Source of the DNA: Mesostigma viride
Lineage: Eukaryota; Streptophyta; Mesostigmatophyceae; Mesostigmatales; Mesostigmataceae
Length of the DNA: 64,000 nucleotides
Direction of reading: 5' to 3'
NCBI GenBank assembly: GCA_009746045.1
Contig: RPFO01000034.1
Span: 3,208,181-3,272,180, forward strand
The notes below the pieces were generated by a model. The model made no database searches. It saw only the letters and a list, made by a program, of their open reading frames with translations, and was not told the DNA's origin. Every line of letters starts with the position of its first letter. Position 1 is the first letter of the stretch. Positions 1,938-62,322 of this stretch are shown piece after piece. Both the position numbers and the translations under genes were made by a program.

Positions 1938-3009
1938 TCAACCAGGAACTCCTGTCCAAGCCCTAAACTTCCTGTCACCCTGTAGACGTGCAAGGATACG
2001 GATTGTAGACGGATCGCGTAGTTTATTTTAATTTAGGAGTGCCCTCATTTCCTCTGTCGTTAGGCAGAAGAGCAAGGCTCCTGCCGGCTACTAACGCACA
2101 CACGTAACAGATGGGCATCAACGCAGGCCCCCTCTGCTGCTGGATTCGAGCTGCTCAGTGCTGGGGCAGCATTATCCTACTATTGCATCACACGTGTAAC
2201 ACTTAGCTGGATCGCCATTATTTATCTGTAATCTGAGGGCAGATGATTCGCAAAAAGCTATGGCAGCGGGCTGCGTAGATTTCTTGGATACCAGGTGCCT
2301 CCGAATCTGTCCGGGCACCGCTTGTGATGTGCATTGGGGTGAACACAGGGACCCATGGGGCCCGCATTTGTACCACTAGATAGCTAAGCATCCTCCACCC
2401 CATGCCAGGCCTTTTAGGTATGATACATCATGGTGGTGCAGGTGCACCTTGTGCACCCAGAGTAGGTGGCGGTTTACATCCCCCCACCTGCAGGTTGTAG
2501 CTCAGCATGTATTACAAACCATAAGCCCCCTCTCAGGGCTATGTGTTACATAAGCTCCCAATGGAGTTATGTTCTGAATTAGTTAATTACTAGCTAGGCT
2601 GTCAATCGGTCAACGCAACCAGTTATGGAATCCACCTGTCACGTCCGTGATCACTTACGTCCGTGCACTCGAGAAACGGCTGTTCACCGAATCATTTACG
2701 TCGGGTTCAAATCCGCTGGTTTGGTTCCGCGGTAGCCGTTTGGCTTGGATTTGTTCAAGTCTGGGCACCGGTGTTACGGCGCGTAACAATCTGCAGTAGT
2801 TACGGCCGTAAATGTAGCTCTTACGTTTCAGTGGCCTCAGTAATTCTGTACGGTCTGTGGTTATGACCGTGAGCTTTCCTACGCCTACGTGTAGTTAGTA
2901 ACTTTGGCCGGTGGTTACCCGGGCCTGTGACGTGGAAATTGTGTGGTACTGTAGTTCGGTGCATCTGCGCCGCGCTGCGTACTTTATAACTAATTAATTG
3001 ATTAATTAA
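1938..3009. other. intergenic, no gene seen
   Basis: Only short unrelated ORFs are present. TGTAA, the usual chlorophyte polyadenylation signal, occurs near 2193 and 2226 and could end the upstream gene. From about 3000 TTAATTAA-type repeats and pieces of LINE 3' sequence begin. Confidence 0.5.
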
Positions 3010-3116
3010 TTATTTAATTGATTAATGGAGGCAGATGGTACGCAAGGATAGATGGCAATAGCAATCACTACTAACTAGGACCTAGCCTTAGTAGCTTACA
3101 TCCGATCCATCCGTCC

Positions 3117-5450
3117 GAGGCGTTCGTCGATGCGCTGGACATCCCGGCCAGCCACGCCCAGCTGTTCGCTGCCGGCCCGGCCTCGGCCCTTCGGCACCTC
3201 GCTGACAAGCTGCCCGCGGCCGGGGCCCTACTGCCCCCCCGCCGCCCGCCCCGCTTCACCAGCCTGCACCGGCTCCCCGCCGTCATCCAGGCCCGGCAAG
3301 CCCTGCGCGACAACCGCGACCCCGCCCGCTACGCCCGCCTCAAAGCCGATTACCACTCGGCCATCCGGCAGGCGACCAAGGAGCAGGAGGACCTTCATGT
3401 CCGCGAGTACTTCGCCCACCTCAAGGACCAGCACGGCAAGTACGCCTGGACCCGCCTGCGTCACGCCCAACGGCCCGCCGGCGGCGCGCAGCCGGCGCCG
3501 CGGACGCTCTCTGGCTCACCGCAGCAGCAGCTCGACCAATGGTATTCCTCCCAGTCCCGGCTGCTCGGCGCCCCCCCGCCGCCTCCGCCGCTTGGCCCTC
3601 TGGCGGCCGCACGCCTGGCAGTAGCACCGGCGGACGTCCCTGCGCCGCCCACGCCGCCCGCCGCTGAGCAGGACTACACGTACCCAGCCCTGACGGAACC
3701 CCTGGCCCACCCCAACGAGCTCCCGCCGTTCACCGAGCTCGAGCTGAGCACCGCCGCCAAGCAACTCCGCTTCTATGCTGCCGTTGGACCTGACCAGCTC
3801 CCAGCCCCGGTGATTAAGCTGACGGCGCTCACGGGGTTTCTGCTTGACGTCTGCAACCGGATCCTGCTTGCTGACGCGCCGCCGATTCCTGAGTGGCAGC
3901 ACAGCTACCGTATTATGCTGTACAAAAACAAAGGTTCCCCTGACGACCCCGCCAACTACAGAGGAGTCTGCATCCAGAGCGCCGCACTTAAGTTGTTCAT
4001 GCGCATGATCCTCAACCGCCTTCGTTCTGCCCTCGACTGTCACCTTGGGGAAAGTCAAATGGGCTTCCGTCCTGGGCGCAACACGGTCATGGCCATCTTC
4101 GTCGCGCGTCGCCTCTTCGAGGAAATCGCTCTCCTGCAACCTGGTGAGTTTCCCGCCATCCTCATCTTCGTCGACTTCATCAAGGCTTTTGATTCTGTCC
4201 TCTGGGACGCTCTATGGGCTGTACTTGCTCGCGCTCGCGTCCCCACTCCCCTGATTACCGTCATCCGCACGCTGTATGAGGGGTCGACCACTTCGGTGCG
4301 CACTCAACACGGCATTACCCCGCCCTGCCCACTGCAGACCGGCGTCTGGCAGGGTTGCGTCCTGTCGCCGTACCTGTTTATTATTGTAGTGGATTATGTT
4401 ATGCGCCAGGCACGTGCTCGCTTTGCTAGCATTGCAGGCCGTGCCCCTGGCCTAGCGATCACGAACGAGCTTGGGGAAGGGGGGCCGACTAACAAGCAGA
4501 ATTTACTAGCTGACCTCATTTATGCCGACGACATCACGCTCATCGAGAAGCCGGAGTCTGCCCAACTTTGGCTGGACTGCCTGGCTCTCGAGGCTCGGGC
4601 GGTTGGTCTAGAAATCAGCCCCAAAACGGAGGCCCTGGCCCTCGGCATGGCAGGGCCCCCACCCACACTCCGCCTCTTAGACGATGCCGAGGTCAACTAC
4701 CCTACTTCAGGCCGCTTCAAGCTGCTCGGCAGTTGGCTTCCCGACTGCGAGGACGACATGACGACACGGATCGGCATGGCGTGGGCGCACCTCCATGACC
4801 ACCGCCGCTGGTGGAGCAACCCCGCCCTACCCCGGATCGTCAAGCGTGACCTCTTCAAGGTCGTCATTCTGACAATCCTGACCTACGCCGGCGCCGAGAC
4901 GTGGACACTGATGCAGGAGCTGGAGCAACGACTCGACGGCGCCGTCACCAAGATGCTGCGCAAGGCCCTTAACATCCCCTTTGGTTTGCACATTAGTAAT
5001 GAGGATTTGTACGCTGATTTGCCCTATGTTTCCCACATTATTAGGCACAGGCGCCTGGGCCTATAGCCGGGCACCTGGCCCGCACAGATCAGGTAGATAC
5101 ATCAGATAGACTAGCTGGCACCAAGCCCGCCCAGCCTGGGCGATATGTCCTCACCTGGCGTGCCCCCGGCCGCGCGCGGCAGGGCCGCCACCCGTGGACT
5201 TTTCGTGATAGACTCGGCATGGACATGTGCTACACTAGACGTGACGGGCTCACCCCCGGGCAGCCTCCTGGTTTGTCTGTAATATGGAGGCAGATGGTGC
5301 GCAAGGATAGATGGCAAGTAGTGATGAAGGAGACCACCCCCAAGCCTGTGGGGGCTCCGCGTGTGACCAAGTATGGCATTCATAGCGATTCGGGCCGCGG
5401 TGCCCACACCCCTGTAACTAGGACCTAGATAGCTTATACCATCCATTCCA
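3117..5450 (+). mobile_element. LINE (non-LTR retrotransposon) copy 1, 5'-truncated, broken near its C-terminus
   Basis: One frame is open from 3117 to the stop at 5064-5066 (about 650 codons). It covers a linker rich in Ala/Pro, then a reverse transcriptase: NYRGVCIQSAALKLF, GFRPGRNT, FVDFIKAFDSV (catalytic Asp), QGCVLSPYLF and YADD at 4521-4532. The thumb and connection region has the usual GAETWTL and RRLGL segments. Compared with copy 2 there is a 2-base insertion (TA) near 5065 that truncates the protein before the GHLART tail, and a 3-base insertion near 4889. Remaining 3' sequence continues to about 5450. The endonuclease part is absent here but seen in copy 3. Clade not assigned; the motif set is that of RT_nLTR-like LINEs. 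Confidence 0.9.
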
Positions 5451-5776
5451 TCCCATGTTCCGCTCCCACTGAGGGCTTATTATGCTCACGTGACGCAGTC
5501 ACGTGTCTATTAATTAATTAATTAATCCGATCCATTCCATCCCATGTTCCCCTCCCACTGAGGACTCATGCTCGATCACAGTGACGCAGTCACGTATCTA
5601 TTAATTAATTATCAGGGCATAAAAAGTTCCATTACTTTGTATTAATTGGCACCCACGTGACGCAGTCACGTGCCGGTTAATTAATGAGTTAGTTAATGAA
5701 TTAACTAAATAATGCCGCCCTCGGATATGCATGCATGATGAAATTTAGAAGCTACCTATACTTATTAATTAATTAA
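5451..5776. repeat. stacked LINE 3' tails: TTAATTAA runs with CACGTGAC palindromes
   Basis: Three successive segments each hold a variant of CACGTGACGCAGTCACGTG, an inverted repeat of 8 bp with a 3-base loop, followed by (TTAA/AATT)n. The first two also hold the TCCCATGTTCC(C/G)CTCCCACTGAGGA block that ends every copy of this LINE in the window. They look like repeated insertions or rearrangements of the LINE 3' end. No coding potential. Confidence 0.75.
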
Positions 5777-7825
5777 TACCTTCATGTCCGCGAGTACTTC
5801 GCCCACCTCAAGGACCAGCACGGCAAGTACGCCTGGACCCGCCTGCGTCACGCCCAACGGCCCGCCGGCGGCGCGCAGCCGGCGCCGCGGACGCTCTCTG
5901 GCTCACCGCAGCAGCAGCTCGACCAGTGGTATTCCTCCCAGTCCCGGCTGCTCGGCGCCCCCCCGCCGCCTCCGCCGCTTGGCCCTCTGGCGGCCGCACG
6001 CCTGGCAGTAGCACCTGCGGACGTCCCTGCGCCGCCCACGCCGCCCGCCGCTGAGCAGGACTACACGTACCCAGCCCTGACGGAACCAGCCCTGGCCGAC
6101 CCCAACGAGCTCCCGCCGTTCACCGAGCTCGAGCTGAGCACCGCCGCCAAGCAACTCCGCTTTTATTATGCCGCCGTTGGACCTGACCAGCTCCCAGCCC
6201 CGGTGATTAAGCTGACGGCGCTCACGGGGTTCCTGCTTGACGTCTGCAACCGGATCCTGCTTGCCGACGCGCCGCCGATTCCTGAGTGGCAGCACAGCTA
6301 CCGTATTATGCTGTACAAAAACAAAGGTTCCCCTGACGACCCCGCCAACTACAGAGGAGTGTGCATCCAGAGCGCCGCACTTAAGTTGTTCATGCGCATG
6401 ATCCTCAACCGCCTTCGTTCTGCTCTCGACTGTCACCTTGGGGAAAGTCAAATGGGCTTCCGTCCTGGGCGCAACACCGTCATGGCCATCTTCGTCGCGC
6501 GTCGCCTCTTCGAGGAAATCGCTCTCCTGCAACCTGGTGAGTTTCCCGCAATCCTGATCTTCGTCGACTTCATCAAGGCTTTTGATTCTGTCCTCTGGGA
6601 CGCTCTATGGGCTGTACTTGCTCGCGCTCGCGTCCCCACTCCCCTGATTACCGTCATCCGCACGCTGTATGAGGGGTCCACCACTTCGGTGCGCACTCAA
6701 CACGGCATTACCCCGCCATGCCCACTGCAGACCGGCGTCTGGCAGGGTTGCGTCCTGTCGCCGTACCTGTTTATTATTGTAGTGGATTATGTTATGCGCC
6801 AGGCACGTGCTCGCTTTGCTAGCATTGCAGGCCGTGCCCCTGGCCTAGCGATCACGAACGAGCTTGGGGAAGGGGGGCCGACTAACAAGCAGAATTTACT
6901 AGCTGACCTCATTTATGCCGACGACATCACGCTCATCGAGAAGCCGGAGTCTGCCCAACTTTGGCTGGACTGCCTGGCTCTCGAGGCTCGGGCGGTTGGT
7001 CTAGAAATCAGCCCCAAAACGGAGGCCCTGGCCCTCGGCATGGCAGGGCCCCCACCCACACTCCGCCTCTTAGACGATGCCGAGGTCAACTACCCTCCTT
7101 CAGGCCGCTTCAAGCTGCTCGGCAGTTGGCTTCCCGACTGCGAGGACGACATGACGACACGGATCGGCATGGCGTGGGCGCACCTCCATGACCACCGCCG
7201 CTGGTGGAGCAACCCCGCCCTACCCCGGATCGTCAAGCGTGACCTCTTCAAGGTCGTCATTCTGACAATCCTGACCTACGGCGCCGAGACGTGGACACTG
7301 ACGCAGGAGCTGGAGCAACGACTCGACGGCGCCGTCACCAAGATGCTGCGCAAGGCCCTTAACATCCCCTTTGGTTTGCACATTAGTAATGAGGATTTGT
7401 ACGCTGATTTGCCCTATGTTTCCCACATTATTAGGCACAGGCGCCTGGGCCTAGCCGGGCACCTGGCCCGCACAGATCAGGTAGATACATCAGATAGACT
7501 AGCTGGCACCAAGCCCGCCCAGCCTGGGCGATATGTCCTCACCTGGCGTGCCCCCGGCCGCGCGCGGCAGGGCCGCCACCCGTGGACTTTTCGTGATAGA
7601 CTCGGCATGGACATGTGCTACACGACGGGACGGGCTCACACCCGGGCAGCCTCCTGGTTTGTCTGTAATATGGAGGCAGATGGTGCGCAAGGATAGATGG
7701 CAAGTAGTGATGAAGGAGACCACCCCCAAGCCTGTGGGGGCTCCGCGTGTGACCAAGTATGGCATTCATAGCGATTCGGGCCGCGGTGCCCACACCCCTG
7801 TAACTAGGACCTAGATAGCTTATAC
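5777..7825 (+). mobile_element. LINE copy 2, longest intact RT reading frame
   Basis: Open frame 5777-7696 (640 codons), joining at its 5' end directly onto TTAATTAA sequence, so this copy is shorter at the 5' side than copy 1. RT motifs are as in copy 1 (GFRPGRNT, FVDFIKAFDSV, QGCVLSPYLF, LIYADDI), then GAETWTL, a C-terminal RRLGLAGHLARTDQ segment and GRHPWTFRDRLGMDMCY. Frame changes near 7620-7650 relative to copies 1 and 3 shift the end, so the stop at 7694-7696 is probably not the ancestral one; the alternative frame runs to 7814. The protein would prime reverse transcription at the target site. No endonuclease is encoded in this fragment. Confidence 0.9.
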
Positions 7826-8030
7826 CATCCATTCCATCCCATGTTCCCCTCCCACTGAGGACTTATGCTCACGTGACGCAGTCACGTGTCTATTAATTAA
7901 TTAATTAATTAATTAATTAATTAATTAATTAATTAATTAATTAATAGACACGTGACTGCGTCACGTGAGCATAAGTCCTCAGTGGGAGGGGAACATGGGA
8001 TGGAATGGATTGTGTAAGCTATCTAGGTCC
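7806..8030. repeat. long inverted repeat of LINE 3' ends around a TTAA core
   Basis: Left arm 7806-7890 (LINE 3' end, CACGTGACGCAGTCACGTG near 7870) is mirrored by the right arm 7940-8030 about a run of roughly 50 bases of TTAA repeats. The arms are nearly perfect complements over about 85 bases, giving a potential large hairpin. It is best explained as two LINE 3' ends joined tail to tail. Confidence 0.85.
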
Positions 8031-8400
8031 TTTCGTGATAGACTCGGCATGGACATGTGCTACGCTAGACGTGACGGGCTCACACCCGGGCAGGCCTCCT
8101 GGTTTGTCTGTAATATGGAGGCAGATGGTACGCATGCAAGGATAGATGGCAAGTAGTGATGAAGGAGACCACCCCCAAGTCTGTGGGGGCTCCGCGTGTG
8201 ACCGCGTATGGCATTCATAGCGATTCGGGCCGCGGTGCCCACAACCCTTTAACTAGGACGTACCTAGATAGCTTACACCATCCATTCCATCCCATGTTTC
8301 CCTCCCACTGAGGACTTATGCTCACGTGACGCAGTCACGTGTCTATTAATTAATTAATTAATTAATTAATTAATTAATTAATTAATTAATTAATTAAGTA
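8031..8400 (+). mobile_element. LINE 3'-end fragment, plus orientation, with TTAA tail
   Basis: Starts at TTTCGTGATAGACTCGGCAT, which is the DRLGMD coding segment near the C-terminus of the LINE, and continues through the 3' UTR to the CACGTGAC palindrome near 8325 and a TTAA tail to about 8400. Only the last 300 bases of the element are present. Confidence 0.8.
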
Positions 8401-8401
8401 A

Positions 8402-8637
8402 TTAATTAATTAATCTAGGTCCTAGTTACAGGGTTGTGGGCACCACGGGCCCGAATTGCTATGAATCCAATACGCGGTCACATGCGGAGCCCCCACAGAC
8501 TTGGGGGTGGTCTCCTTCATCACTACTTGCAATCTATCCTTGCGTACCATGATTCTGCCTCCATATTACAGACAAACCAGGAGGCTGCCCGGGTGTGAGC
8601 CCGTCACGTCTAGTGTAGTATAGCACATGTCCATGCC
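8402..8637 (-). mobile_element. LINE 3'-end fragment, minus orientation, split by the Ty3 element
   Basis: Reverse complement of the LINE 3' region (TCTAGGTCCTAGTTACAGGG to CACATGTCCATGCC). It stops exactly at the Ty3 5' LTR and resumes after the 3' LTR at 17985 with ATGCCGAGTCTATCACGAAA, restoring the sequence seen intact at 18508-18545. The LINE fragment is therefore older than the LTR element. Confidence 0.85.
8633..8637. repeat. target-site duplication ATGCC (left)
   Basis: Five bases ATGCC directly before the 5' LTR are repeated directly after the 3' LTR (17985-17989). Five-base duplications are typical of Ty3-type integrases. Confidence 0.9.
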
Positions 8638-17984: not shown

Positions 17985-18190
17985 ATGCCGAGTCTATCAC
18001 GAAAAGTCCACGGGTGCCGGCGACCCTGCCGCGCGCGGCCAGGGGCACGCAATGTGGGGACATAACGCCCACTGAGTGGGCGGGCTTTAGGTGCCAGCTA
18101 GTCTACTCTGGTGTGTCTACCTGATCTGTGCGGGCCAGGTGCCCAGCTAGGCCCAGGCGCCTGCATGGGCCTAAAATTGTGGGAATTAAT
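17985..18190 (-). mobile_element. remainder of the split LINE 3' fragment
   Basis: Continues the fragment 8402-8637 across the Ty3 insertion. It reads antisense through the GRHPWTFRDRLGMD and GHLARTDQ coding segments with several substitutions, ending where TTAATTA sequence starts at about 18187. Confidence 0.8.
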
Positions 18191-21030
18191 TAATTATAAT
18201 AATTAATTAATAGACACGTGACTGCGTCACGTGAGCATAAGTCCTCAGTGGGAGGGAAACATGGGATGGAATGGATGGTGTAAGCTTAGTAATAATCTAG
18301 GTCCTAGTTACAGGGTTGTGGGCACCGCGGCCCGAATCGCTATGATCAATGCCATACGCGGTCACACGCGGAGCCCCCACAGACTTCGGGGTGGTCTCCT
18401 TCATCTATACTTGCCATCTATCCAAGCCATCTGCACGTACCATCTGCCTCCATATTACAGACAATTACCAGGAGGCTGCCCGGGTGTGAGCCCGTCACGT
18501 CTAGTGTAGCACATGTCCATGCCGAGTCTATCACGAAAAGTCCACGGGTGGCGGCCCGGCCGCGCGCGGCCTGGGGCACGCAAGGTGAGGACATATCGCC
18601 CAGGCTGGGCGGCCTTGGTGCCAGCTAGTCTATCTGATGTATCTACCTGATCTGTGCGGGCCAGGTGCCCGGCTAGGCCCAGGCGCCTGTGCCTAATAAT
18701 GTGGGAAACATAGGGCAAATCAGCGTACAAATATCCTCATTACTAATGTGCAAACCAAAGGTAATGTTAAGGGCCTTGCGCAGCATCTTGGTGACGGCGC
18801 CGTCGAGAGTCGTTGCTCCAGCTCCTGCGTCAGTGTCCAGGTCTCGGCGCCGTAGGTCAGGATCGTCAGAATGACGTCCTTGAAGAGGTCACGCTTGACA
18901 ATCCGGGGTAGGGCGGGGTTGCTCCACCAGCGGCGGTGGTCATGGAGGTGCGCTCACGCCATGCCGATCCGTGTCGTCAGGTTGTCCTGGCAGTCGGGAA
19001 GCCAACTGCTGAGCAGCTTGAAGCGGCCTGAATTAAGGAGGGTAGTTGACCTCGGTGTCGTCGAAGAGGCGGAGTGTGGGTTGGGGCCCTGCCATGCCGA
19101 CGGCCAGGGCCTCCGTTTTGGGGCTGCCTTTCTAGACCAACCGCCCGAGCCTCGAGCGCCAGGCAGTCCAGCCAAAGTTGGGTGCACTGAGACTCCGGCC
19201 TCTCAATGAGCATGATGTCGTCGGCATAAATGAGGTCAGCTAGTAAATTCTGCTTGTTAGTCGGCCCCCCTTCTCCAAGCTCGTTCGTGATCGCTAGGCC
19301 AGGGGCACGGCCTGCAATGCTAGCAAAGCGAGCACGTGCCTTGCGCATAACATAATCCACTACAATAATAAACAGGTACGGCGACAGGACGCAACCCTGC
19401 CAGACGCCGGTCTGCAGTGGGCATGGCGGGGTAATGCCGTGTTGAGTGCGGACCGAAGTGGTCGACCCCTCATACAGCGTGCGGATGACGGTAATCAGGG
19501 GAGTCAGTGGGGACGCAAGCGCCAGCAAGGACAGCCCATAGAGCGGCCCAGAGGACAGAATCAAAAGCCTTGATGAAGTCGACGAAGATCAGGATGGCGG
19601 GAAACTCACCAGGTTGCAGGAGAGCGATTTCGTCGAAGAGGCGACGCGCGACGAAGATGGCCATGACGGTGTTGCGCCCAGGACGAAAGCCCATTTGACT
19701 TTCCCCTAGGTGACAGTCGAGAGCAGAACGAAGGCGGTTGAGGATCAAGCGCATGAACAACTTGAGTGCGGCGCATAATTAATTTGGATGCAGACTCTTC
19801 GGTAGTTGGCGGGGTCGTCAGGGACACCTTTGTTTTTGTACAGCATAATAATATACGGTAGCTGTGCTGCCACTCAGGAATTGGCGGCGCGTCGGCAAGC
19901 AGGATCCGGTTCAATGCAGACGTCAAGCAGGAACCCCGTGAGCGCCGTCACCGGGGCTGGGAGCTGGTCAGGTCCAACGGCGGCGTAGAAGTGGAGTTGC
20001 TTGGCGGCGGTGCTTAGCTCGAGCTCGGTGAACGGCGGTAGCTTGTTGGGGTCGGCCAGGGGTTTCGTCAGGGCTGCATGGGTATATACGTGTAGTCTCG
20101 CTCAGCGGCGGGCGGCGTGGGCGGCGCAGGGACGTCCGCAGGCGCTACTGCCAGCTAGCGTGCGGCCGCCAGAGGGCCAAGCGGCGGAGGCGGCGGGGGG
20201 GCGCCGAGCAGCCGGGACTGGGAGGAATACCACTGGTCGAGCTGCTGCTGCGGTGAGCCAGAGAGCGTCCGCGGCGCCGGCTGCGCGCCGCCGGCGGGCC
20301 GTTGGGCGTGTCCAGGCGTACTTGCCGTGCTGGTCCTTGAGGTGGGCGAAGTACCCGCGGACATGAAGGTCCTCCTGCATGCTCCTCGGTCGCCTGCCGG
20401 ATGGCCGAGTGGTAATCGGCTTTGAGGCGGGCGTAGCGGGCAGGGTCGCGGTTGTCGCGCAGGGCTTGCCGGGCCTGGATGACGGCAGGGAGCCGGTGCA
20501 GGCTGGTGAAGCGGGGCGGGCGGCGGGGCCGGGGGCAGCAGGGCCCCTGCCCCCGGGCAGCTTGCCAGCGAGGTGCCGAAGGGCCGATGCCGGGCCGGCA
20601 GCGAACAGCTAGCTGGGCGTGGCTGGCCGGGATGTCCAGCGCGTCGACGAACTTCTCTGCCGCGCGCTTGTGGGCGCGTTTTTCAGGGAAGTCCTCCAGA
20701 GCGTCGTCAGATTTTTCAAGCAACTGCAGTGTTCGCAAATCAGGTGGTGCCACGTGCTTACGGAACTTAGTGCGAGGGGAATCGCAGGCGGATGCGGGCG
20801 GTGACGATGCGATGATCGGAGCGCACCAGGGGGATCACGTGCGAGCGAGCAGCTAGTACAGATCCTTGATGACGCTTGCGCATTACAACATAGTGGATGC
20901 AGCGCCGTTCAGTGCCCGTGGGCGAGGTGTGTGTGACCAGAGCATCTGGACTATGTGGAAAGCGGGTGTTGGCAGTTACCGAATCGCATGTCGTAAGCCG
21001 GCAAATCAGCAAAAAGTTCAGTGTTGGCAT
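18191..21030 (-). mobile_element. LINE copy 3, longest copy, with end of AP endonuclease; many frameshifts
   Basis: On the minus strand from about 21030 down to the TTAA-rich 3' tail near 18200. The segment 21030-20767 encodes the C-terminal part of an APE-type endonuclease: ERRCIHYVVMRKRHQ followed by PLVRSDHRIVTARIRLRF, the SDHxxV motif that closes the active site. Then come the linker (20753-20145, KFVDALDIPAS), RT (19926-18977, GFRPGRNT, FVDFIKAFDSV, QGCVLSPYLF, YADD) and the C-terminal GHLARTDQ segment near 18650. The frame changes at least six times, so the copy is dead. The N-terminal endonuclease half is missing. Confidence 0.9.
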
Positions 21031-42179: not shown

Positions 42180-42669
42180 GTGCCAGCTATATAGAATCGA
42201 GCAGTATTTGGGCGTACGGTAGTAGGGATCGGATCAACGTGATACTTCCAACGCCAATAGTTAACTGATTCGCCAATAGCAACGTGGTGTGTTTTTTTTT
42301 CCTCCCCCTATTCTTTCTTTTTTTTTTTTTTCTTTTCTTCCGTAACGGCAGAACGTTTTCCTGCCGACCGGTTTCAATCATTGATATACTATAATAATAG
42401 CGTTGGATCGCAATGCTTCTAGATAGAGTTACATAGGATAGTTCGATCACGCGGCTTCCTCCACCCCACCCATCATGGAATATGTGCTACATGACCTCCC
42501 CACGGAGGCATGTTATAATTTAATTTTTAATCGCAATGCGTCCAGGATTAAAGTTGTCTAACAGTTTGTGCTAGTTGTATAACAGTTTGTGCTAAGTTTG
42601 TCTAACTTAAGTTTGTCTAAGTTAATAATAACATTATTGAACAAGTTACATGCAATATCATGCATGCAC
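42180..42669. other. AT-rich spacer with LINE 3' UTR copy
   Basis: Poly-T/A runs at 42290-42335. 42441-42530 (GTTCGATCACGCGGCTTCCT through CGGAGGCATGTTATAATTTA) is repeated at 50289-50380, where it follows a LINE coding end, so it is probably a LINE 3' UTR. No gene. Confidence 0.6.
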
Positions 42670-42860
42670 TTTGTGAGCTAATGCTCGTATTATCTTGTGC
42701 TACATGGTGCATTAGGGTCAGGGTACTCGCCGCTAGCTTCTAGAAAGAATTTGTAAAAATATATTTCTGGCACAGGTCACCCCCCCCCCACTTGCTATAG
42801 GGAGGTTTTCCTATAAAGGGAGAGGGGGATGGCGGTGAGCCTACCCGTTTTTGTTGACTC
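42670..42860 (+). repeat. A1 repeat of the YR retroelement (left end)
   Basis: 191 bp from TTTGTGAGCTAATGCTCG to TTGACTC. It recurs at 49182-49372 with a few changes, chiefly in a poly-C run. Confidence 0.9.
42812..42818 (+). promoter_or_regulatory. TATA-like box in A repeat
   Basis: TATAAAG lies 111 bases before the ATG of the gag-like ORF and is repeated in A2. A plausible promoter for the genomic RNA. Confidence 0.4.
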
Positions 42861-43344
42861 GAAACTCGTGAAGCATTATACGCCTAGCTATGTAATAACG
42901 GCGTCAATCAGACAACTTACCAATGGCCGAGGAGGTCTTTCAGGATGCAATGGCAGACGCGGCGGTTCCGTCGGCGGTGAGACCACCGGAAGCGGAGTGG
43001 CTAAACCGAATGCGGGTTGTCCCTATGGATGGCTCGCTAAAGGACATCGCCCTCAGGGCGAGGGCCTTGTTGGGGGGCAGCCCACGCTGGCTGGATCGCA
43101 TCCTGGCCCTACCAGACGGTCGTCGGCTCGACAACCTCGAGAAGTACTTGAGGCGACGTGGCTTTTACGTCGAGCCCCTTCCCAGGGAGACGATGCAGTC
43201 CGCCATCGCTGCCATGCTGCGGGATGCGCTGCAGGACCCGGGCGAGGAGGAAAATTACGAGGAGGAGGAGGAGCCCCGGCACGAAGTCCGGGAGGAGTCA
43301 GGGAACAATCGACGCGTGAGCTCCGGGGTGCATGGGCTACGCGT

Positions 43345-43352
43345 CGACCAGT
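43345..43352. repeat. hAT target-site duplication CGACCAGT (left)
   Basis: Exact 8-base direct repeat of 44667-44674, the duplication length typical of hAT elements. Confidence 0.9.
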
Positions 43353-44666
43353 CAGTGAACAGCCATACGGCGTATAATACGCCGTATGGCGCGTATTATG
43401 CGCCATACGCAAGATTTCCGTATGGAAATGGGGAAAAAAATACGCACTGCGTATTTTTTGCGTATTTTTTGCGTATTGCGTATTTTTTGCGTATTTTTTG
43501 CGTATGAACCGCGTTCGAAGTAGCTTCTGGCATCATTTTGGACGGCAGTGGAGCCGGAACTAGACTGTATCTAGGCGACCTGGAACTCCGCGACAAATAA
43601 ACGACATGCAGGTGCCAAGCTGGCCGTGCATGTACGACTGTACGTGCATTGCTGCAGATTGCTGCGTGTCGGACTAGGGTCTAGGAGAAGAAGGACGAGG
43701 AAATTAGGTGACGAAGTTATGTTGTCTGCCAACAAGGGCGCGCATCTGGCACCTAACATTTAATCGTAGCACAATTGACATCCAGGCACCATGGCTAGCG
43801 ACGGTGATGGTGTGGGTCTATGGAACACGATGATGACTGGCTGGGCCGACGAGATGCAGGCCGTATTCGAGACTGTCTGGACACACATCGTGAAAGAACA
43901 GACTCTCAACAAGAAAGGGCAGCCGACAGGTAACTACAAGCTAAGTGACGTGCACACTTTTGGATGCAGAATTCTCGGGTTCTACCACCCGAGCAAGGCT
44001 ACTAGCACCCGCCATATCATGGGCGCTACGTACGCGAAGGAGGCAAGAGTGAGCGAGTGCAAGAGGCCGCCGGAGGCATTACGTCGCAGGCTGCGGGGTA
44101 TTTGGTGTGACTCGCGATGCACATAAATGCCTTATTTAGCCATGCAGGCTGCTGCTAGCCAGCCACCGTACCATATGTGTTAATGGTTTAGGGAAGCTGG
44201 GTCGGGTTGCTGGCATGCATGGTATCCTGCACGCTAGCCACATTGTTGGCAGCCCGTATGGATTCTTGCTTCATGTAGATCAATATTGCATGGTGGCCTA
44301 CCACGAGTAGGCAAGATGTCTGTTTCTGGCACGATGTTTTATTACTTTTGGCACGTTGGCCGACTGACCGTGTGCTATTTACAGACATTATTAGTAACAA
44401 CAGATGTACAATGCTTGTATTTGTAGGCATGCAGCGACGGCAACGGCAATATTATGTGATGATGTGTTAAATAAAGGCAAGTGGTGTTGCAAGAACACAC
44501 AAAAAACATGCCTGATTGGTCAGAATGTTGAAGAACCCCCTGAACCATGCAAAAAACAGCATTTTCAAGAGTCCCCGTATGATTTGCGTATTATACCCCG
44601 TATGGCGTATTATACACCATACCCATGGGCCCCGTATGGTTGCGTATTGCGTATGGCTGTACACTG
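43353..44666. mobile_element. non-autonomous hAT element nested in gag
   Basis: 1314 bp with 17-bp terminal inverted repeats, CAGTGAACAGCCATACG and CGTATGGCTGTACACTG (one mismatch), and an 8-bp duplication CGACCAGT. CAGTG ends plus 8-bp duplications define hAT. Subterminal regions are full of GCGTAT/ATACGC motifs (43370-43505 and 44570-44655), the likely transposase-binding sites. It holds one 111-codon ORF but no catalytic domain. Confidence 0.9.
43791..44126 (+). pseudogene. N-terminal, BED-finger-like remnant of a hAT transposase
   Basis: 111 codons (MASDGDGVGLWNTMMTGWAD). WTHIVKEQTL, a Cys in FGCRILGF, STRHIMGATY and VSECKRPPEALRRRL follow the order of BED-type fingers of hAT proteins (aromatic-W/F, C, H, C), though one zinc-binding Cys is not apparent. 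The RNase-H catalytic part is missing, so it was lost by internal deletion. An intron or gene-trap role cannot be excluded. Confidence 0.45.
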
Positions 44667-45362
44667 CGACCAGTTTTTGGCGGGTGGGGAAGCGGGAAAA
44701 TCTGGCGACAGGGCGGGCCGCCAGCCTCCCCAGACGGCGCGTTCAACCCAGCGCGGCCGGCAGCAGGCAGGGGAGGATGGCGACGCTCTAGCTTTAGCAA
44801 TGGGCCGCTTGGTTATGAGCGGCCTGCTGACCAGCGAGCAAGCCATAGCTGCGCAAGGGGGTCGACAGACCTGCACGCCGGGCGTGGAGCTGCCCTCCCA
44901 CGCCACCTCGGTGAACGTGGAGTGCGGAGCGCGGCAGCCCCTGCTGCCGAGTGCTCTGCGGTCTGCGGAGTCGGTGGCGGGGGGGAGCATCAGGGGATGG
45001 CTGCTGGCCACCAAGCCGACCTGGACGGGTCATGCAGGGGGCCGAGGTGTGCAAGCTCCTGGCCCACCAGATCGCCTTCACGCTGGATACTCTGAACACG
45101 GAGTTAGGCTGGCTGCCGCGGGGAATGGGGGACGATGCCATCAAGCACATGGCAGCCCCCGAGTACCTGATGAAAATTCTGACGGCGATCACGCTGGCCG
45201 ATACCATGCAAGGGTTCAAGGGGGCAGCATTAGCGATGCTCCCCTTGCAGGAGGATGCGAACCTGCTGTGGCATCCGGCAGTGCAGAGCGCTATGAAGGC
45301 AGCCGAGCTCTCCAACCGCCTAGAGAAGGGCAAGGGGCCGAAGAAGGAGTAGGGGAGACTTT

Positions 45363-45520
45363 GCCGAATTTGAATCTGGGGAGGCGCACTCTAGTGGGCA
45401 CGCTAGGGCTTTCCCAGAATCTGCCGCGGAATCGGCAGATTTTGTCGAATTTGGATCTGGGGAGGCGCACTCTAGTGGGCACGCTAGGGCTTTCCCAGAT
45501 TCTGCAGAATCAGCCCGGGG
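45363..45520. repeat. about 80-bp tandem duplication within the pol N-terminal region
   Basis: GGGGAGGCGCACTCTAGTGG followed by GCACGCTAGGGCTTTCCCAG occurs twice (about 45376 and 45459), with a degenerate third relative near 45585 (CGTGGCACGGCTGGGCGCACTCTGACGGGCACG). In the open frame it encodes two copies of LGRRTLVGTLGLSQ. Confidence 0.8.
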
Positions 45521-46045
45521 AATTTGGCCCCGCCCCCTCTGCTGGGGATCGTGTGAATCAATTCTCGAAATATTCTGGTGTGGGGCGTGGCACGGCTGGG
45601 CGCACTCTGACGGGCACGTCAGGGCCTGGTCGGGATTCGGTGGTGGAATCTGGAAGCCCCCCACAGCCAGTGGCTCCACTTGGCGTGCCGGTGCGGCCTG
45701 TTTGGCCGCTGGGCGCCAGGGGCGAATCTGGGGTAAATACCAATCGACAACATGCCTTGCTTCCGTTGCCTCTACCAGTTGACTTGGCAAAGCGCCGGTG
45801 GGGCGCGCTGGGGTCTGCCCGGCGCCGACAGCGGGCGGCCTTGACCCTTCGGGGTCAGGACGCCGCCTGTGCGGCGGTGGGGGCCCTAAACTGGTGTGGG
45901 GGCGGGGGCCGACACCCGCTAAACCTGCCGGCCCGGGCGACGGGGCCGGTCCAGGAGGCGGCTCTACAGGAGATCTTCAAAACTTGCCGGGCCTATTGCC
46001 GCCAGCAGCCTGTTGTAGCGGCAGCTGGCCCGGCCCCAGTCAGGG

Positions 46046-47940
46046 ATGACAACACACAAGTGGACCTTTCACAACAATTCAGGCGGACAAGGTCGCGTTC
46101 CCCGCGCCGGGGAGGGGGGCACCGTGGACGTGCTGGGGCTCTTGCCGCCCTCGGTGGCGGCCGTGTATGCCAGCGAGGAGACGCTGGTGCGACTGCTGAC
46201 ACCCGGCGAGCGGCGGGTGCGGTTCCGGGCCACCCGGGGGTGCGCCCCTGCGGAGTACATCAAGCTGTTGCTGCGCGCGTTGGAGGCCGGGGTTGTCGGG
46301 GGGTTTTATGAGCAGGCGCCCCCAGCAGTAAATGGGGTGGCGGGGCGCAAGAAGCCGGACGGCTCGATGCGACTCATCGTGGACAACCGGCCTGGCAACT
46401 GCATGGCTCCTGGTAGACCCCCCCGCGGCCCTTCTCCCATCCACCTTGGGGTGATAGCCGAGCTGTGGGTGCGGGCTGGCTGCCCGGTGTTCGGGGGCAC
46501 TTCCGACCTCGAGGGCTACTACAATCGCCTGCGGCTCCCCGACTGGCTGCGCAAGTACTGCGCTTGGCCGGCTGTGGACTCCCGGGACGTCGGGCTGCCC
46601 GGGCCCGCCCGGCAGGTGTGGCCGTGGATGCGCTGCTGGCCCATGGGTAACCCGTAAGAAGCACGCCGTGGTGGTCGCCCAAGTGATCCACATGGCGGTG
46701 CTGTACCGCTCCGGGGCTTTGGATCCCCGTCGGGGCGTCAGCATTAACATGGCCCAGCTCCTGCTGGTGGTGGACAAGGGACCCTTGGGCCAGACGGTGC
46801 GCCTCCGGTGGGAGAAGGACCCGCCGGCCAACCCCTTAATTGGCCCCCGCCGCCATCTTCGACCCGCCGCACGACGAGGAGGGCCTCCATGCCATCACCA
46901 TCGACGACCTGCACGTCTCCCACTGTGCAACGGCGGCGGGTGTCAACCAGCAGCTGGCGCGGGCCGCGGCAGCCTATGCAGCAGCGGGGCTGCCGCAGAA
47001 TTGGCGAGTAATTAAGGTGGTGCCGGCCAGCCCCGACCAGCGGGACGTGGTGGCCTTGGGTGTCGTGCACCGGCACGACGGAAGCATCGTCCCGACCGCG
47101 GAGCGGCTGGCTGGGGTCGTTGCCGCCACCCAGGCCGTCTTGCAGCGCGGGTTCACCTACCAGCGGGAGCTCGAGTCCCTCGTCGGCAAGTGGGTGTGGA
47201 TATCCAGCTGCTGTGCCGGCCGCTGCTCTCCCTCTGGGGGGAGACGTACCGCGCTTGCTGCACGTCATGCGGGCAGACCCGTGGGACTGGTACGCGCGGC
47301 GCCGCCGCTGGCAGTTGTGGCAAAGCGTGCGGGAGGAGCTCACGGCGGCTGTCGCCACGGCGCCCTTCCTACGGGCGCCGCGGGCAGCCCCCCTCGCGGG
47401 CCGGGTGGTGGTGACAGACGCCAGCACGGAGGGGGCCGGGATCGTGTACGCCGACCTACCGGCTGCACAGGTGCAGTCCTTGGCCCAGGGCCGGGAGGCT
47501 CGGGGGTGGGCCACGGTGGCGCTGGGGGCCTCGGATACGCCTTGGACCGTTGAGCGGCTGACGGAGGCGGACTACCATGCAGGTGATCGCCACCGCGCCG
47601 TGGCGGACGGCGGTGTCCTACCGCTGGGGCAACCCGCGGGAGCACATCAACATCAAGGAGGCGCGCGTGGCTGCCCAGGGTCTGGAATGGTCGTGTCGCT
47701 CCCTGGCCGTCCGCGGGACGCGCGTTGTGCGGATGGTGGACTCCAGCGCGGTCCTCGGCTGCATGGTCAAGGGCCGGTCGTCTTCTTACCGGCTCAACCA
47801 AGCATGGCCCGGCGCGCGTAGCGGCCCTGTCCTTGGCGGCGGACACTCGGTCTCATTGGGTGTATGTGCGTACCTCGAGTAACCCTGCGGATGGACCCAG
47901 CCGAGCGCGCAGTGCCCCGGTGGCGGGTGGCTGGCGCCGG
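46046..47940 (+). pseudogene. reverse transcriptase and RNase H of the YR element
   Basis: Frame 46046-46600: RKKPDGSMRLIVDNRPGN and TSDLEGYYNRLRLPDWLRKY (first catalytic Asp). After shifts near 46600 and 46830 the frame 46840-47220 gives HAITIDDLHVSH (the YxDD position, here IDD) and NWRVIKVVPASPDQRDVVAL, then LVGKWVW. RNase H follows (about 47390-47920): VVVTDASTEGAGIV, EHINIKEARVAAQGLEW, RMVDSSAVLGCMVKG and WVYVRTSSNPADGPSR, the usual end of DIRS-type RNase H. At least four frame changes. Sequence order matches DIRS/TOC Pol. Confidence 0.8.
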
Positions 47941-47982
47941 GACCTCACCTCCAACGGCGACGTGGAGGCCAATCCGGGGCCG
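47941..47982 (+). other. 2A-like ribosome-skipping peptide between RNase H and recombinase
   Basis: In the frame that ends RNase H the sequence reads DLTSNGDVEANPGP, matching the 2A consensus GD-(V/I)-E-x-NPGP at every fixed position. The skip would fall between the Gly codon at 47977-47979 and the Pro codon at 47980-47982, releasing RT-RNase H from the recombinase. The same frame continues downstream into RLRNARHRLLEGTVNPRSTL, the start of the recombinase. Confidence 0.75.
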
Positions 47983-48960
47983 CGGCTGCGCAACGCCCGT
48001 CACCGGCTCTTGGAGGGCACGGTCAACCCCCGTTCCACCCTGCCCCGCTACCACCGCGCCGTGTCGGTCTTTCTGGCGTGGCTTCCACCCGCCACCCGGG
48101 GAGCACGACCCCACCGAGGCCGATCGAGGCACTGTTCTGCGAGTGGATCTCGGCGGTGTACGAGAGTGGTGGGGGCAGGGGGCGGACTCTTTGTCAGCAG
48201 GCGAAGCAGGGGCTCCGTTTGTACCAGCCCTCGGCGGTGGTCGACTCGTGGCAGATGGCTGACCGCATGCTGCGCGGCTGGGGTCGGCTGGTCCCCTGCC
48301 AGAGTCCCCCCCCGGTCCCGTGGCGACTGTGCTACCTCGCGGCTGTCCTGCTACTCTCCCGCCATCAGACCGCCATGGCTGCGCTGGTGCTGGTGGCTTT
48401 CCAGCAGTATCTGCGCATCAGCGAGGCTTTGGGCCTGCACGTTGGGGACGTGGCGTTCCCAGGGGACCCCCGCCTGGCGCCGGCGCGTGGTCAGGGGGCA
48501 CTCCTGCTCCGGGACCCCAACAAGACAGCCCAAGGTGGTACCCAGCATATCCTCGTGGAGGACCCTCTCTCGTTGGGCCTCTTGTCCGCGCTGTGCCGCG
48601 GCGGCCGGGCACCGGGGGCGCTGGTCTTCGGCGGGCTCACGTTTGCGCAGGCGCGGTCACAGTGCATGGGTCAGTGTCTGGACCCAGCTCCAGCTCCCGG
48701 GCAAGTTCACGCTGCACTCGCTGCGGCATGGTGCATGGGGCCACCCACGACGCCTTGCGCAACATCCCGACGGCGGACATTCAGCGGCGCGGCCGTTGGC
48801 GCGCGGCTGACTCGGTGCAGCGCTTCGTGGGACTCCACCGGGCCCTGCTGCTGGACCTCCCCCCGCGCCTCTGGGCCCTGGCGCATTCCTGGGACCCGGC
48901 GCACTGGCGCGCCCACTTCCGGGGCCATCTACTGTGACCCGACCCGCACCCACTGCGGGC
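47983..48960 (+). pseudogene. tyrosine recombinase (DIRS/TOC type), catalytic Tyr apparently Phe
   Basis: Starts LRNARHRLLEGTVNPRSTLP (N-terminal helix, then a SAM-like core domain). A frameshift near 48085 leads to FQQYLRISEALGLHVGDV (first catalytic Arg), a shift near 48660 to KFTLHSLRHGA (HxxR box, 48715-48726), and one near 48735 to TADIQRRGRWRAADSVQRFV. In the last block the residue in the place of the nucleophilic Tyr is Phe (TTC, 48824-48826). The enzyme would recombine the circular cDNA into the genome. Ends at about 48937. Confidence 0.75.
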
Positions 48961-49018
48961 GCCTGGGTTGTGAGCCTACATGTGTCTACTACGGCCTGAG
49001 GGGCCAGAATGGAGATAT

Positions 49019-49181
49019 GGGACGGGCAGTTTAGGTGATTATACTGCCGTCCCAAATTCTGTGTGTTATCCCGCTTAGAGTCTAGACCTAGCGCTGGTGT
49101 GTTATTTCACTAATTTGTAATAAACATGAGGTGTCTGGCGTGTAACCCGAAACCAATCACTATGTATAAATAACACTGGAT
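49019..49181 (+). repeat. B1 repeat
   Basis: GGGACGGGCAGTTTAGGTGA to ACACTGGA; repeated as B2 at 49397-49553 with one small indel (TAAAT) near its end. It directly abuts A2. Confidence 0.9.
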
Positions 49182-49372
49182 TTTGTGAGCTAATGCTCGT
49201 ATTATCTTGTGCTACATGGTGCATTAGGGTCAGGGTACTCGCCACTAGCTTCTAGAAAGAATTTGTAAAAATATATTTCTGGCACAGGTCACCCCCCCCC
49301 CCCCCTTGCTAGGGAGGTTTTCCTATAAAGGGAGAGGGGGATGGCGGTGAGCCTACCCGTTTTTCTTGACTC
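49182..49372 (+). repeat. A2 repeat
   Basis: Second copy of A1, flanked by B1 and, after 24 bases (CCACCC-rich), B2. This internal placing is the diagnostic split direct repeat. Confidence 0.9.
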
Positions 49373-49396
49373 CCACCCACCCACCCTTGGGGGACA

Positions 49397-49553
49397 GGGA
49401 CGGGCAGTTTAGGTGATTATACTGCCGTCCCAAATTCTGTGTGTTATCCCGCTTAGAGTCTAGACCTAGCGCTGGTGTGTTATTTCACTAATTTGTAATA
49501 AACATGAGGTGTCTGGCGTGTAACCCGAAACCAATCACTATGTAAACACTGGA
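49397..49553 (+). repeat. B2 repeat (right end of YR element)
   Basis: Copy of B1; its end marks the right boundary of the element. Confidence 0.9.
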
Positions 49554-58500: not shown

Positions 58501-61500
58501 TCCACCACCACCATCCATGCGAGCACCCCACCACCATCATCCATGCATGCCAGCACCCCACCACCATCCATGCATGCCAGCCACCCACCACCACCATCCA
58601 TGCATGCCAGCCACCCACCACCACCATCCATGCGTGCCAGCACCCACCACCACCATCCATGCGTGCCAGCCACCCACCACCACCATCCATGCATGCCAGC
58701 CACCCACCACCACCATCCATGCGTGCCAGCACCCCACCACCATCCATGCGTGCCAGCACCCCACCACCACCATCCATGCATGCCAGCCACCCACCACCAC
58801 CATCCATGCATGCCAGCACCCCACCACCATCATCCATGCATGCCAGCACCCCACCACCACCATCCATGCATGCCAGCCACCCACCACCACCATCCATGCA
58901 TGCCAGCCACCCACCACCACCATCCATGCGTGCCAGCCACCCACCACCACCATCCATGCATGCCAGCCACCCACCACCACCATCCATGCGTGCCAGCACC
59001 CCACCACCACCATCCATGCATGCCAGCCACCCACCACCACCATCCATGCATGCCAGCCACCCACCACCACCATCCATGCGTGCCAGCCACCCACCACCAC
59101 CATCCATGCATGCCAGCCACCCACCACCACCATCCATGCGTGCCAGCACCCCACCACCACCATCCATGCATGCCAGCACCCCACCACCACCATCCATGCA
59201 TGCCAGCCACCCACCACCACCATCCATGCGTGCCAGCACCCCACCACCACCATCCATGCATGCCAGCCACCCACCACCACCATCCATGCATGCCAGCCAC
59301 CCACCACCACCATCCATGCGTGCCAGCACCCCACCACCACCATCCATGCATGCCAGCCACCCACCACCACCATCCATGCGTGCCAGCACCCACCACCACC
59401 ATCCATGCATGCCAGCCACCCACCACCACCATCCATGCATGCCAGCCACCCACCACCACCATCCATGCGTGCCAGCCACCCACCACCACCATCCATGCAT
59501 GCCAGCACCCCACCACCATCATCCATGCATGCCAGCACCCCACCACCACCATCCATGCATGCCAGCACCCCACCACCACCATCCATGCATGCCAGCCACC
59601 CACCACCACCATCCATGCATGCCAGCCACCCACCACCACCATCCATGCGTGCCAGCACCCCACCACCACCATCCATGCATGCCAGCCACCCACCACCACC
59701 ATCCATGCATGCCAGCCACCCACCACCACCATCCATGCGTGCCAGCACCCCACCACCACCATCCATGCATGCCAGCCACCCACCACCACCATCCATGCGT
59801 GCCAGCACCCCACCACCACCATCCATGCATGCCAGCCACCCACCACCACCATCCATGCATGCCAGCCACCCACCACCACCATCCATGCGTGCCAGCCACC
59901 CACCACCACCATCCATGCATGCCAGCACCCCACCACCATCATCCATGCATGCCAGCCACCCACCACCACCATCCATGCGTGCCAGCCACCCACCACCACC
60001 ATCCATGCATGCCAGCACCCCACCACCATCATCCATGCATGCCAGCACCCCACCACCACCATCCATGCATGCCAGCACCCCACCACCACCATCCATGCAT
60101 GCCAGCCACCCACCACCACCATCCATGCGTGCCAGCACCCCACCACCACCATCCATGCATGCCAGCCACCCACCACCACCATCCATGCATGCCAGCCACC
60201 CACCACCACCATCCATGCATGCCAGCCACCCACCACCACCATCCATGCATGCCAGCACCCCACCACCATCATCCATGCATGCCAGCACCCCACCACCACC
60301 ATCCATGCGTGCCAGCACCCCACCACCACCATCCATGCATGCCAGCCACCCACCACCACCATCCATGCATGCCAGCCACCCACCACCATCATCCATGCGT
60401 GCCAGCACCCCACCACCACCATCCATGCATGCCAGCACCCCACCACCACCATCCATGCATGCCAGCCACCCACCACCACCATCCATGCATGCCAGCACCC
60501 CACCACCATCATCCATGCATGCCAGCACCCCACCACCACCATCCATGCATGCCAGCCACCCACCACCACCATCCATGCATGCGAGCCACCCACCACCACC
60601 ATCCATGCATGCCAGCACCCCACCACCATCATCCATGCATGCCAGCACCCCACCACCACCATCCATGCATGCCAGCCACCCACCACCACCATCCATGCAT
60701 GCGAGCCACCCACCACCACCATCCATGCGTGCCAGCACCCCACCACCATCATCCATGCATGCCAGCACCCCACCACCACCATCCATGCATGCCAGCCACC
60801 CACCACCACCATCCATGCATGCGAGCCACCCACCACCACCATCCATGCGTGCCAGCACCCCACCACCACCATCCATGCATGCCAGCCACCCACCACCACC
60901 ATCCATGCATGCCAGCCACCCACCACCACCATCCATGCGTGCCAGCACCCCACCACCACCATCCATGCATGCCAGCCACCCACCACCACCATCCATGCAT
61001 GCCAGCCACCCACCACCACCATCCATGCGTGCCAGCACCCCACCACCACCATCCATGCATGCCAGCCACCCACCACCACCATCCATGCGTGCCAGCCACC
61101 CACCACCACCATCCATGCATGCCAGCCACCCACCACCACCATCCATGCATGCCAGCCACCCACCACCACCATCCATGCATGCCAGCCACCCACCACCACC
61201 ATCCATGCGTGCCAGCACCCCACCACCACCATCCATGCATGCCAGCCACCCACCACCACCATCCATGCGTGCCAGCACCCCACCACCACCATCCATGCAT
61301 GCCAGCCACCCACCACCACCATCCATGCATGCCAGCCACCCACCACCACCATCCATGCGTGCCAGCCACCCACCACCACCATCCATGCATGCCAGCACCC
61401 CACCACCACCATCCATGCATGCCAGCCACCCACCACCACCATCCATGCGTGCCAGCACCCCACCACCACCATCCATGCATGCCAGCCACCCACCACCACC

Positions 61501-62322
61501 ATCCATGCATGCCAGCCACCCACCACCACCATCCATGCGTGCCAGCCACCCACCACCACCATCCATGCATGCCAGCCACCCACCACCACCATCCATGCGT
61601 GCCAGCACCCCACCACCATCATCCATGCGTGCCAGCACCCCACCACCACCATCCATGCATGCCAGCCACCCACCACCACCATCCATGCATGCCAGCACCC
61701 CACCACCATCATCCATGCATGCCAGCACCCCACCACCACCATCCATGCATGCCAGCCACCCACCACCACCATCCATGCATGCCAGCCACCCACCACCACC
61801 ATCCATGCGTGCCAGCACCCCACCACCACCATCCATGCATGCCAGCCACCCACCACCACCATCCATGCATGCCAGCCACCCACCACCACCATCCATGCAT
61901 GCCAGCACCCCACCACCACCATCCATGCATGCCAGCCACCCACCACCACCATCCATGCATGCCAGCCACCCACCACCACCATCCATGCATGCCAGCCACC
62001 CACCACCACCATCCATGCATGCCAGCCACCCACCACCACCATCCATGCGTGCCAGCACCCCACCACCACCATCCATGCATGCCAGCCACCCACCACCACC
62101 ATCCATGCGTGCCAGCCACCCACCACCACCATCCATGCGTGCCAGCCACCCACCACCACCATCCATGCATGCCAGAACCCCACCACCATCATCCATGCGT
62201 GCCAGCACCCCACCACCACCATCCATGCATGCCAGCCACCCACCACCACCATCCATGCGTGCCAGAACCCCACCACCATCATCCATGCGTGCCAGCACCC
62301 CACCACCACCACCCATGCGTGA
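58501..62322. repeat. 30-bp minisatellite, about 127 units, with higher-order structure
   Basis: Unit made of CCACCACCACCATCCATGC, then A or G, then TGCCAGC, then CACCCA or ACCCCA. Main variants: ATGCAT/ATGCGT, AGCCACC/AGCACCCC and CCACC/CCATC, plus rare GCGAGCC and CAGAACCC. As 30 is a multiple of three and the unit has no stop, it is open in all six frames, giving false ORFs of more than 1000 codons. Three 120-bp blocks (60481-60600, 60601-60720, 60721-60840) are copies of a four-unit block marked by GCGAGCC. Confidence 0.97.

Follow-up and report, generated by a model that had tools for sequence, protein, structure and literature searches.

2A peptides in non-LTR retrotransposons were reportedly described by Heras in 2006 and Odon in 2013. 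The accessible text of three papers places 2A peptides in viruses, in non-LTR retrotransposons and in a few cellular genes, with those of L1Tc and APE-type elements lying inside a retroelement protein (PMC11512398, PMC4981915, PMC5972666). Among viral sequences, StopGo motif 4 is defined by DLTxDG within a wider signature, WV(R/K)DLTx[acidic]G, that precedes DVESNPGP; as far as the accessible sections of that study go, motif 4 of RNA viruses was nearly 100% active in reticulocyte lysate, a rare natural viral variant with histidine at p14 (p14=H) was more than 95% active in the same lysate, and the abstract records no natural StopGo use in plant viruses (PMC12846837). Tyrosine recombinase (YR) retroelements, in the retrieved portions of the literature on them, encode YR in an ORF of its own that is often overlapping or frameshifted (PMC3783388, PMC6681497). 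Ngaro elements combine reverse transcriptase (RT), RNase H and YR without a methyltransferase and follow the order A-pol-B-A-B, with the internal repeats downstream of YR (PMC3783388, PMC4157794).

We analysed a 64,000-nucleotide stretch of Mesostigma viride DNA (the window) and found DLTSNGDVEANPGP encoded at 47941-47982 of the plus strand, between an RNase H tail and a tyrosine recombinase. The full 2A/StopGo-like peptide, WRRDLTSNGDVEANPGP, occupies 47932-47982 (+), and, going by the 2A motif, skipping is predicted at the bond that joins Gly (47977-47979) to Pro (47980-47982). In translation, the 2A shares its frame with the preceding SNPADGPSR of RNase H and with the opening part of YR (RLRNARHRLLEGTVNPRSTLPRYHRAVSVFLAWLPP), in agreement with the initial annotation, which had the motif inside a retroelement and in frame from RNase H tail to recombinase start, although the shared frame covers only that opening part of YR. 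The rest of YR lies in frames other than that of the 2A, and we call the window copy decayed because tblastn needs several frames to recover it. The further claim that the motif satisfies the 2A consensus at all fixed positions stands for the core, which we defined as (D/G/C/N)(V/I)ExNPGP or its p14=H variant and found in the window and in 67 of 69 loci, but not for the extended upstream signature: the window copy carries N at a position that is mostly D in sister copies of families A, D and E, mostly C in those of families B and C, and mostly acidic in viruses in the available text of PMC12846837.

The whole element spans 42665-49544, with every feature on the plus strand. It begins with split direct repeat A1 (42665-42860, 196 nt) and continues through a decayed piece of RT (46130-46579, tblastn to residues 126-273 of the RT-RNase H protein P0014) to a decayed region in several frames that ends in SNPADGPSR (47303-47904, tblastn to P0004, P0002 and P0014) and that, from its position and motif, we take to be RNase H. 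After the 2A comes the recombinase, broken over several frames (47983-48934, tblastn to P0001), with residues 1-302 of P0001 matching 47733-48662 and residues 325-390 matching 48737-48934. Downstream of YR lie repeats B1 (49019-49166, 148 nt), A2 (49177-49372) and B2 (49397-49544, the 3' end of the element), giving the order A1...B1-A2-B2; A2 is 94% identical to A1 ungapped and 96% by blastn, and B2 is 100% identical to B1. The B1-A2-B2 block recurred at 93-99% in five loci of family A (L001, L003, L004, L005 and L006) and in part in L002 and L007. In families B-E, direct repeats of 94-166 nt follow the frame in L049, L053 and L058, with none in L054 or L008. Two inverted pairs in the window are internal to the element or outside it; the element ends are direct repeats, against a DIRS1-like identity with inverted terminal repeats and an internal complementary region.

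The domain order is RT, RNase H, YR. Among 2A-bearing proteins, the recombinase family PF00589 scored above the Pfam cut-off in P0017 only; it fell below the cut-off in P0001, P0002, P0004, P0015, P0016 and P0018, as it did in P0005, and no Pfam family was found in P0024, where YR is named by alignment only. RVT_1 matched the relative P0020 with an E-value of 0.0065, short of the cut-off that Pfam sets for it, and PF00336 gave weak matches in relatives, likewise below cut-off. In the alignment, MIDD or MVDD occupies the position where the RT active site would be expected; the RT and RNase H identities rest on homology to RT proteins that are themselves weakly recognised, and are best called probable. 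The RT-RNase H profile had no PDB match, and a XerC-like PDB chain (E 0.065) was set aside as chance level, two unrelated chains scoring 0.075. Two weak Pfam matches among ten of the window's own frames were judged meaningless.

Neither a protease nor a DDE integrase was found by Pfam at E<=0.05, a search of limited power here given that it saw no RT in P0015; within that power, the initial annotation's description of an element lacking a protease agrees with our result. Methyltransferase PF05869 was likewise absent at E<=0.05 from nine proteins, weak evidence in that Pfam also misses RT, and P0015 has only about 30 residues from NPAD to YR, which leaves little room for a methyltransferase. 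The absence of a detectable methyltransferase, together with split direct repeats, leads us to regard the element as probably Ngaro-like rather than DIRS or PAT, an assignment made on the structural criteria in the accessible text of PMC4157794 and PMC3783388. The label 'DIRS/PAT-type' in the initial annotation thus gives way to a Ngaro-like structure, and the host is a streptophyte alga. PAT and TOC elements of green algae share split direct repeats and algal hosts with the Mesostigma element, but the DIRS group including PAT is defined, in the portions available, by the methyltransferase that we did not find (PMC3266345, PMC4157794). Ngaro elements share its domain set and repeat order, but their YR is a separate ORF that may be frameshifted or overlapping (PMC3783388, PMC4157794), whereas the Mesostigma YR is fused in frame with a 2A. 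TATE of Bodo saltans is also a YR retroelement, two copies of which are single-ORF, but its host and repeats differ (PMC6681497, as far as its retrieved text goes).

Taking motif, position and element together, we consider, at a probability of roughly 0.87, that the peptide is a working 2A separating RT-RNase H from YR in a Ngaro-like element. The nascent WxRDLTxDGDVExNPG would stall the ribosome from within the exit tunnel; RT-RNase H-2A would be let go with Gly as its last residue, and translation by that ribosome would continue from Pro, yielding the tyrosine recombinase as a protein of its own. A single mRNA in a single frame would then supply both enzymes, with no need for a protease, a frameshift or a second start. 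What we infer is that skipping occurs, how efficient it would be and that a free recombinase is needed; the activity of the Mesostigma peptides would follow by analogy with their viral counterparts. Judged by sequence alone, the family D signature (peptide WVRDLTADGDVESNPGP, upstream WVRDLTADG) equals viral motif 4, and families B and C carry p14=H. In the available text, viral motif 4 likewise has WxxDLTxDG followed by DVExNPGP, joins two domains of one frame and includes a p14=H variant, but the Mesostigma 2A sits in a retrotransposon pol, at an RNase H-YR junction, in a streptophyte alga (PMC12846837).

We next considered relatives among proteins. P0001 (jgi/Mesvir1/23290, 390 residues) shows the window's arrangement in a single frame, with DLTSDGDVEANPGP, and matched the Mesostigma viride genome (440 Mb, 2243 contigs) at 100% over its 390 residues. 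Searches with P0001 returned 14 proteins and those with a composite query 17, together 29 distinct proteins; the composite query, which brought in P0024 and P0015-P0019, was built in part on 2A sequence, and the share of YR elements that carry a 2A can therefore not be read from this set. In P0015 (1054 residues), P0016 (1045) and P0018 (1029), a single chain holds RNase H, the 2A and YR in that order, and the junction peptides are RDLTQDGDVEANPGP, RDLTQDGDVESNPGP and RDLAADGDVERNPGP, respectively; those of P0017, P0002 and P0004 are RNLTADGDVESNPGP, RDLTADGDVESNPGP and PDLTRCGDVHPNPGP. A divergent metagenomic polyprotein, P0024 (28% identical to P0015), has a longer linker before the motif, with junction QRDLTADGDVESNPGP and 2A peptide WQRDLTADGDVESNPGP. 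In P0019 (junction PNVTQAGDVETNPGP) the frame ends soon after the 2A, and the fused RNase H-YR protein P0005 has GEAANPGP, outside the known core, which makes it a fused relative that apparently manages with no canonical 2A.

Across this set, the 2A motif goes with RNase H-YR fusion. NPGP stood in frame at the junction in nine of nine proteins with RNase H and YR on one chain, which answers the check on relatives proposed in the initial annotation, and GDV[E/H]xNPGP in eight of the nine. One of 11 RT-RNase H proteins without YR had NPGP, namely the 2A-bearing, cut-short P0019; it was absent from the other ten (P0014, P0020-P0023 and P0025-P0029) and from eight of eight YR-only proteins (P0003, P0006 and P0008-P0013). 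For these counts, we left out P0007 (no NPGP; gene model mostly out of frame), P0003 begins after the junction owing to its gene model, and P0022 was counted as RT-RNase H on account of its chain end NPADAPSRL, though a loose regular expression flags YR. Among viral contigs, no relatives were found via P0001, via the alignment or via two 2A DNA patterns, the 24 stretches that fit a 2A pattern coding for no relative; the DLTxxGDVExNPGP pattern had 0 matches in bacterial and archaeal genomes.

This distribution bears on whether the junction is instead a conserved structural linker or a host-protease site whose likeness to 2A is incidental. Such a reading would suit a Pro/Gly-rich segment between two domains, and P0005 keeps NPGP without DVE. 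The linkers flanking the 2A, however, vary in length and sequence in a nine-protein alignment while GDVxxNPGP stays constant, and NPGP is missing from the ten RT-RNase H relatives without YR or 2A and from the eight YR-only proteins. Moreover, the match extends over nine upstream residues of a virus class with tested activity, and the one core change among families, to His, is also allowed by viruses (both as given in the available text of PMC12846837). We regard a linker or protease site as very unlikely. In the same alignment, seven of 24 invariant columns are the G, D, V, N, P, G and P of the 2A, a count that requires letters in all nine rows, several of them partial, and that could therefore draw on little beyond the 2A and the end of RNase H.

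To follow the motif across the genome, we scanned with P0001 (106 of 2195 candidates scored) and P0018 (45 of 2801, 49 matches) and examined 69 loci, 68 picked from the scan lists plus the window, which fall into five families, A-E; these loci are not independent, many being near-identical, above all in family B, the most numerous. GDV[E/H]xNPGP was kept in the raw DNA of 67 of the 69 and NPGP was lost in two (L021 and L026). RNase H, 2A and YR share one open frame at 56 of the 69 loci (36 of L001-L048 and 20 of L049-L068), all 20 of the latter group having a frame of 852-1421 aa that holds the three parts. Related copies had been singled out in the initial annotation as the place where a missing or misframed NPGP would matter, and these figures favour its reading.

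Codon patterns gave the same picture genome-wide, with 177 matches to D(V/I)ExNPGP against 0 for the reversed control and 327 to D(V/I)HxNPGP against 1. The motif, its place and frame, its conservation and copy number and the retroelement anatomy around it are what the analysis observed directly. A chance match or gene-model artefact, for which the shortness of the motif might speak, is therefore of negligible probability: besides these counts and the presence of the motif in raw DNA, NPGP arose 1.2 times per window in 200 simulated windows (order-3 Markov) and D[VI]ExNPGP in 0 of 200. The window itself holds two NPGP occurrences over six frames, the other, at 27073, without the remaining motif. 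The copy counts rule out chance, a gene-model artefact and a motif restricted to the window copy alike.

Some copies are nonetheless damaged, which raises the reading that the motif is the relic of a formerly active 2A, spread by amplification and now unused; 13 of the 69 loci, the window included, lack a single open frame across the three parts. Against this, intact long frames are common, many of the genome matches listed running to 995 aa without stops, and families that differ at most synonymous 2A sites keep the core. Between families, core residues are constant while their codons change synonymously: in the 2A codons, 11 synonymous changes and 1 non-synonymous change separate B from C, 7 and 1 separate D from E, and 6.8 and 8.2 separate A from B. 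Summed over pairs of five family representatives, pN/pS was 0.28 for the 2A (14 codons), 0.38 for RNase H (60 codons), 0.58 for the linker after the 2A and 0.45 for the start of YR, contrasts that are descriptive only, with pS at about 0.7 and near saturation. A relic is accordingly less probable still than a linker or protease site.

The alternative to which we give most weight, though it too is improbable, is that the 2A-derived peptide skips only partly, with fused RT-RNase H-YR also a main product that perhaps brings the recombinase to the cDNA, and with the p14=H of family B tuned to more fusion. It is consistent with the rare p14=H in the most copied family and with sea-urchin NLR 2As, which, in the available text, act through a mix of fused and split products (PMC4981915). 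Natural p14=H and motif-4 peptides, however, gave >95% and ~100% separation, respectively, in a study whose sequences and system were not algal (PMC12846837, accessible sections). The observations that weigh against the main reading of a working 2A are the GEAANPGP core of P0005, the alignment-only YR of P0024, the His at p14 of family B, rare in viruses, the Asn of the window copy at a usually acidic position in a gene that is not intact, and the loss of NPGP in L021 and L026.

An RT-RNase H tree of 22 rows, with P0005 and the YR-only proteins left out, grouped the Mesostigma-type families, all with the 2A, in one clade (99/99). P0024 was unplaced on a long branch; the 2A label needs two changes on this tree, and one is compatible with it. 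A single Glu-to-His switch at p14 is the simplest account of the core because His is common to B and C, which group together. Tentatively, and at somewhat short of even odds, we propose that YR retroelements are an old, separate lineage of 2A users: a DLTxDG 2A would have been gained once at the RNase H-YR junction, before the families split and perhaps before the split from P0024, enabling a protease-free single-frame pol, and the families would afterwards have adjusted the core, with H replacing E at p14 in some, and spread, leaving hundreds of natural StopGo sites in one genome of the green lineage.

That many related copies retain the motif suggests a protease-free way for this kind of element to produce its integrating enzyme as a separate protein. 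Rao 2025 (Cell Rep 44:115822) is said to survey eukaryotic and viral 2As and may list YR elements. Within the partial text covered, no 2A in a YR retroelement was found in the literature on 2A or on YR and other retroelements, comprising PMC12846837, PMC4981915, PMC11512398, PMC3783388, PMC3266345, PMC4157794, PMC6681497, PMC8623073, PMC5009743, PMC8310308, PMC5972666 and PMC8547959. On that coverage we regard the peptide as known and the kind of element that hosts it as new, and make no claim that it is absent from print. L1Tc and APE-type elements, as described in the available text of PMC4981915, PMC11512398 and PMC5972666, are LINE-type, whereas the Mesostigma element is a YR element with split direct repeats in which the 2A would part the recombinase from RT-RNase H. 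A working 2A would give YR retroelements a one-frame, protease-free release of the recombinase, and about 500 core matches (177 + 327) in one streptophyte algal genome would amount to natural StopGo use in the green lineage. The family set also doubles as a natural variant panel, with E or H at p14 and D, N or C upstream.

The genome-wide matches also reveal differences in distribution. By codon string, 100 listed of the 177 DVE-type matches comprise 67 of D/E type, 21 of A type and 12 others. On each contig, the D/E-type copies are packed closely into one cluster spanning 12-113 kb, with 64 of the 67 listed matches in 11 clusters (contigs C1, C2, C335, C446, C1106, C1391, C1480, C1513, C1535, C1579 and C1591); against uniform chance, P ranged from 5e-5 to 2e-15 on six contigs of known length. 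By this clustering they look like candidate centromere-seeking elements. The 21 A-type copies among the matches listed are scattered over 16 contigs. At L069 (G000:C2:917500-919100, minus strand), a different open frame carries KRDLTKDGDVESNPGP twice through a 243-bp tandem duplication, and its codon string is present at eight of the D(V/I)ExNPGP places listed; L069, which belongs to the 12 others, is not a YR frame, and therefore not all 177 matches are YR elements. Further D(V/I)ExNPGP strings outside the examined YR families lie at G000:C2:562394, C1292:7930, C1480:2461054 and C1579:7372027.

In L058, a 515-aa open frame (29-1576) overlaps, in another frame, the start of the 909-aa pol frame (1471-4200) and is possibly gag; open frames are common in such GC-rich DNA. 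Elsewhere in the window, 58502-62318 holds an extended tandem array whose repeat unit, judged by self-match offsets, is about 30 bases and whose copies are about 91-96% alike. Long near-identical blocks occupy 3122-8414 and 18184-20652, including a direct pair (3391-5526 with 5778-7909, 98%) and an inverted pair (3122-5526 with 20652-18193, 92%).
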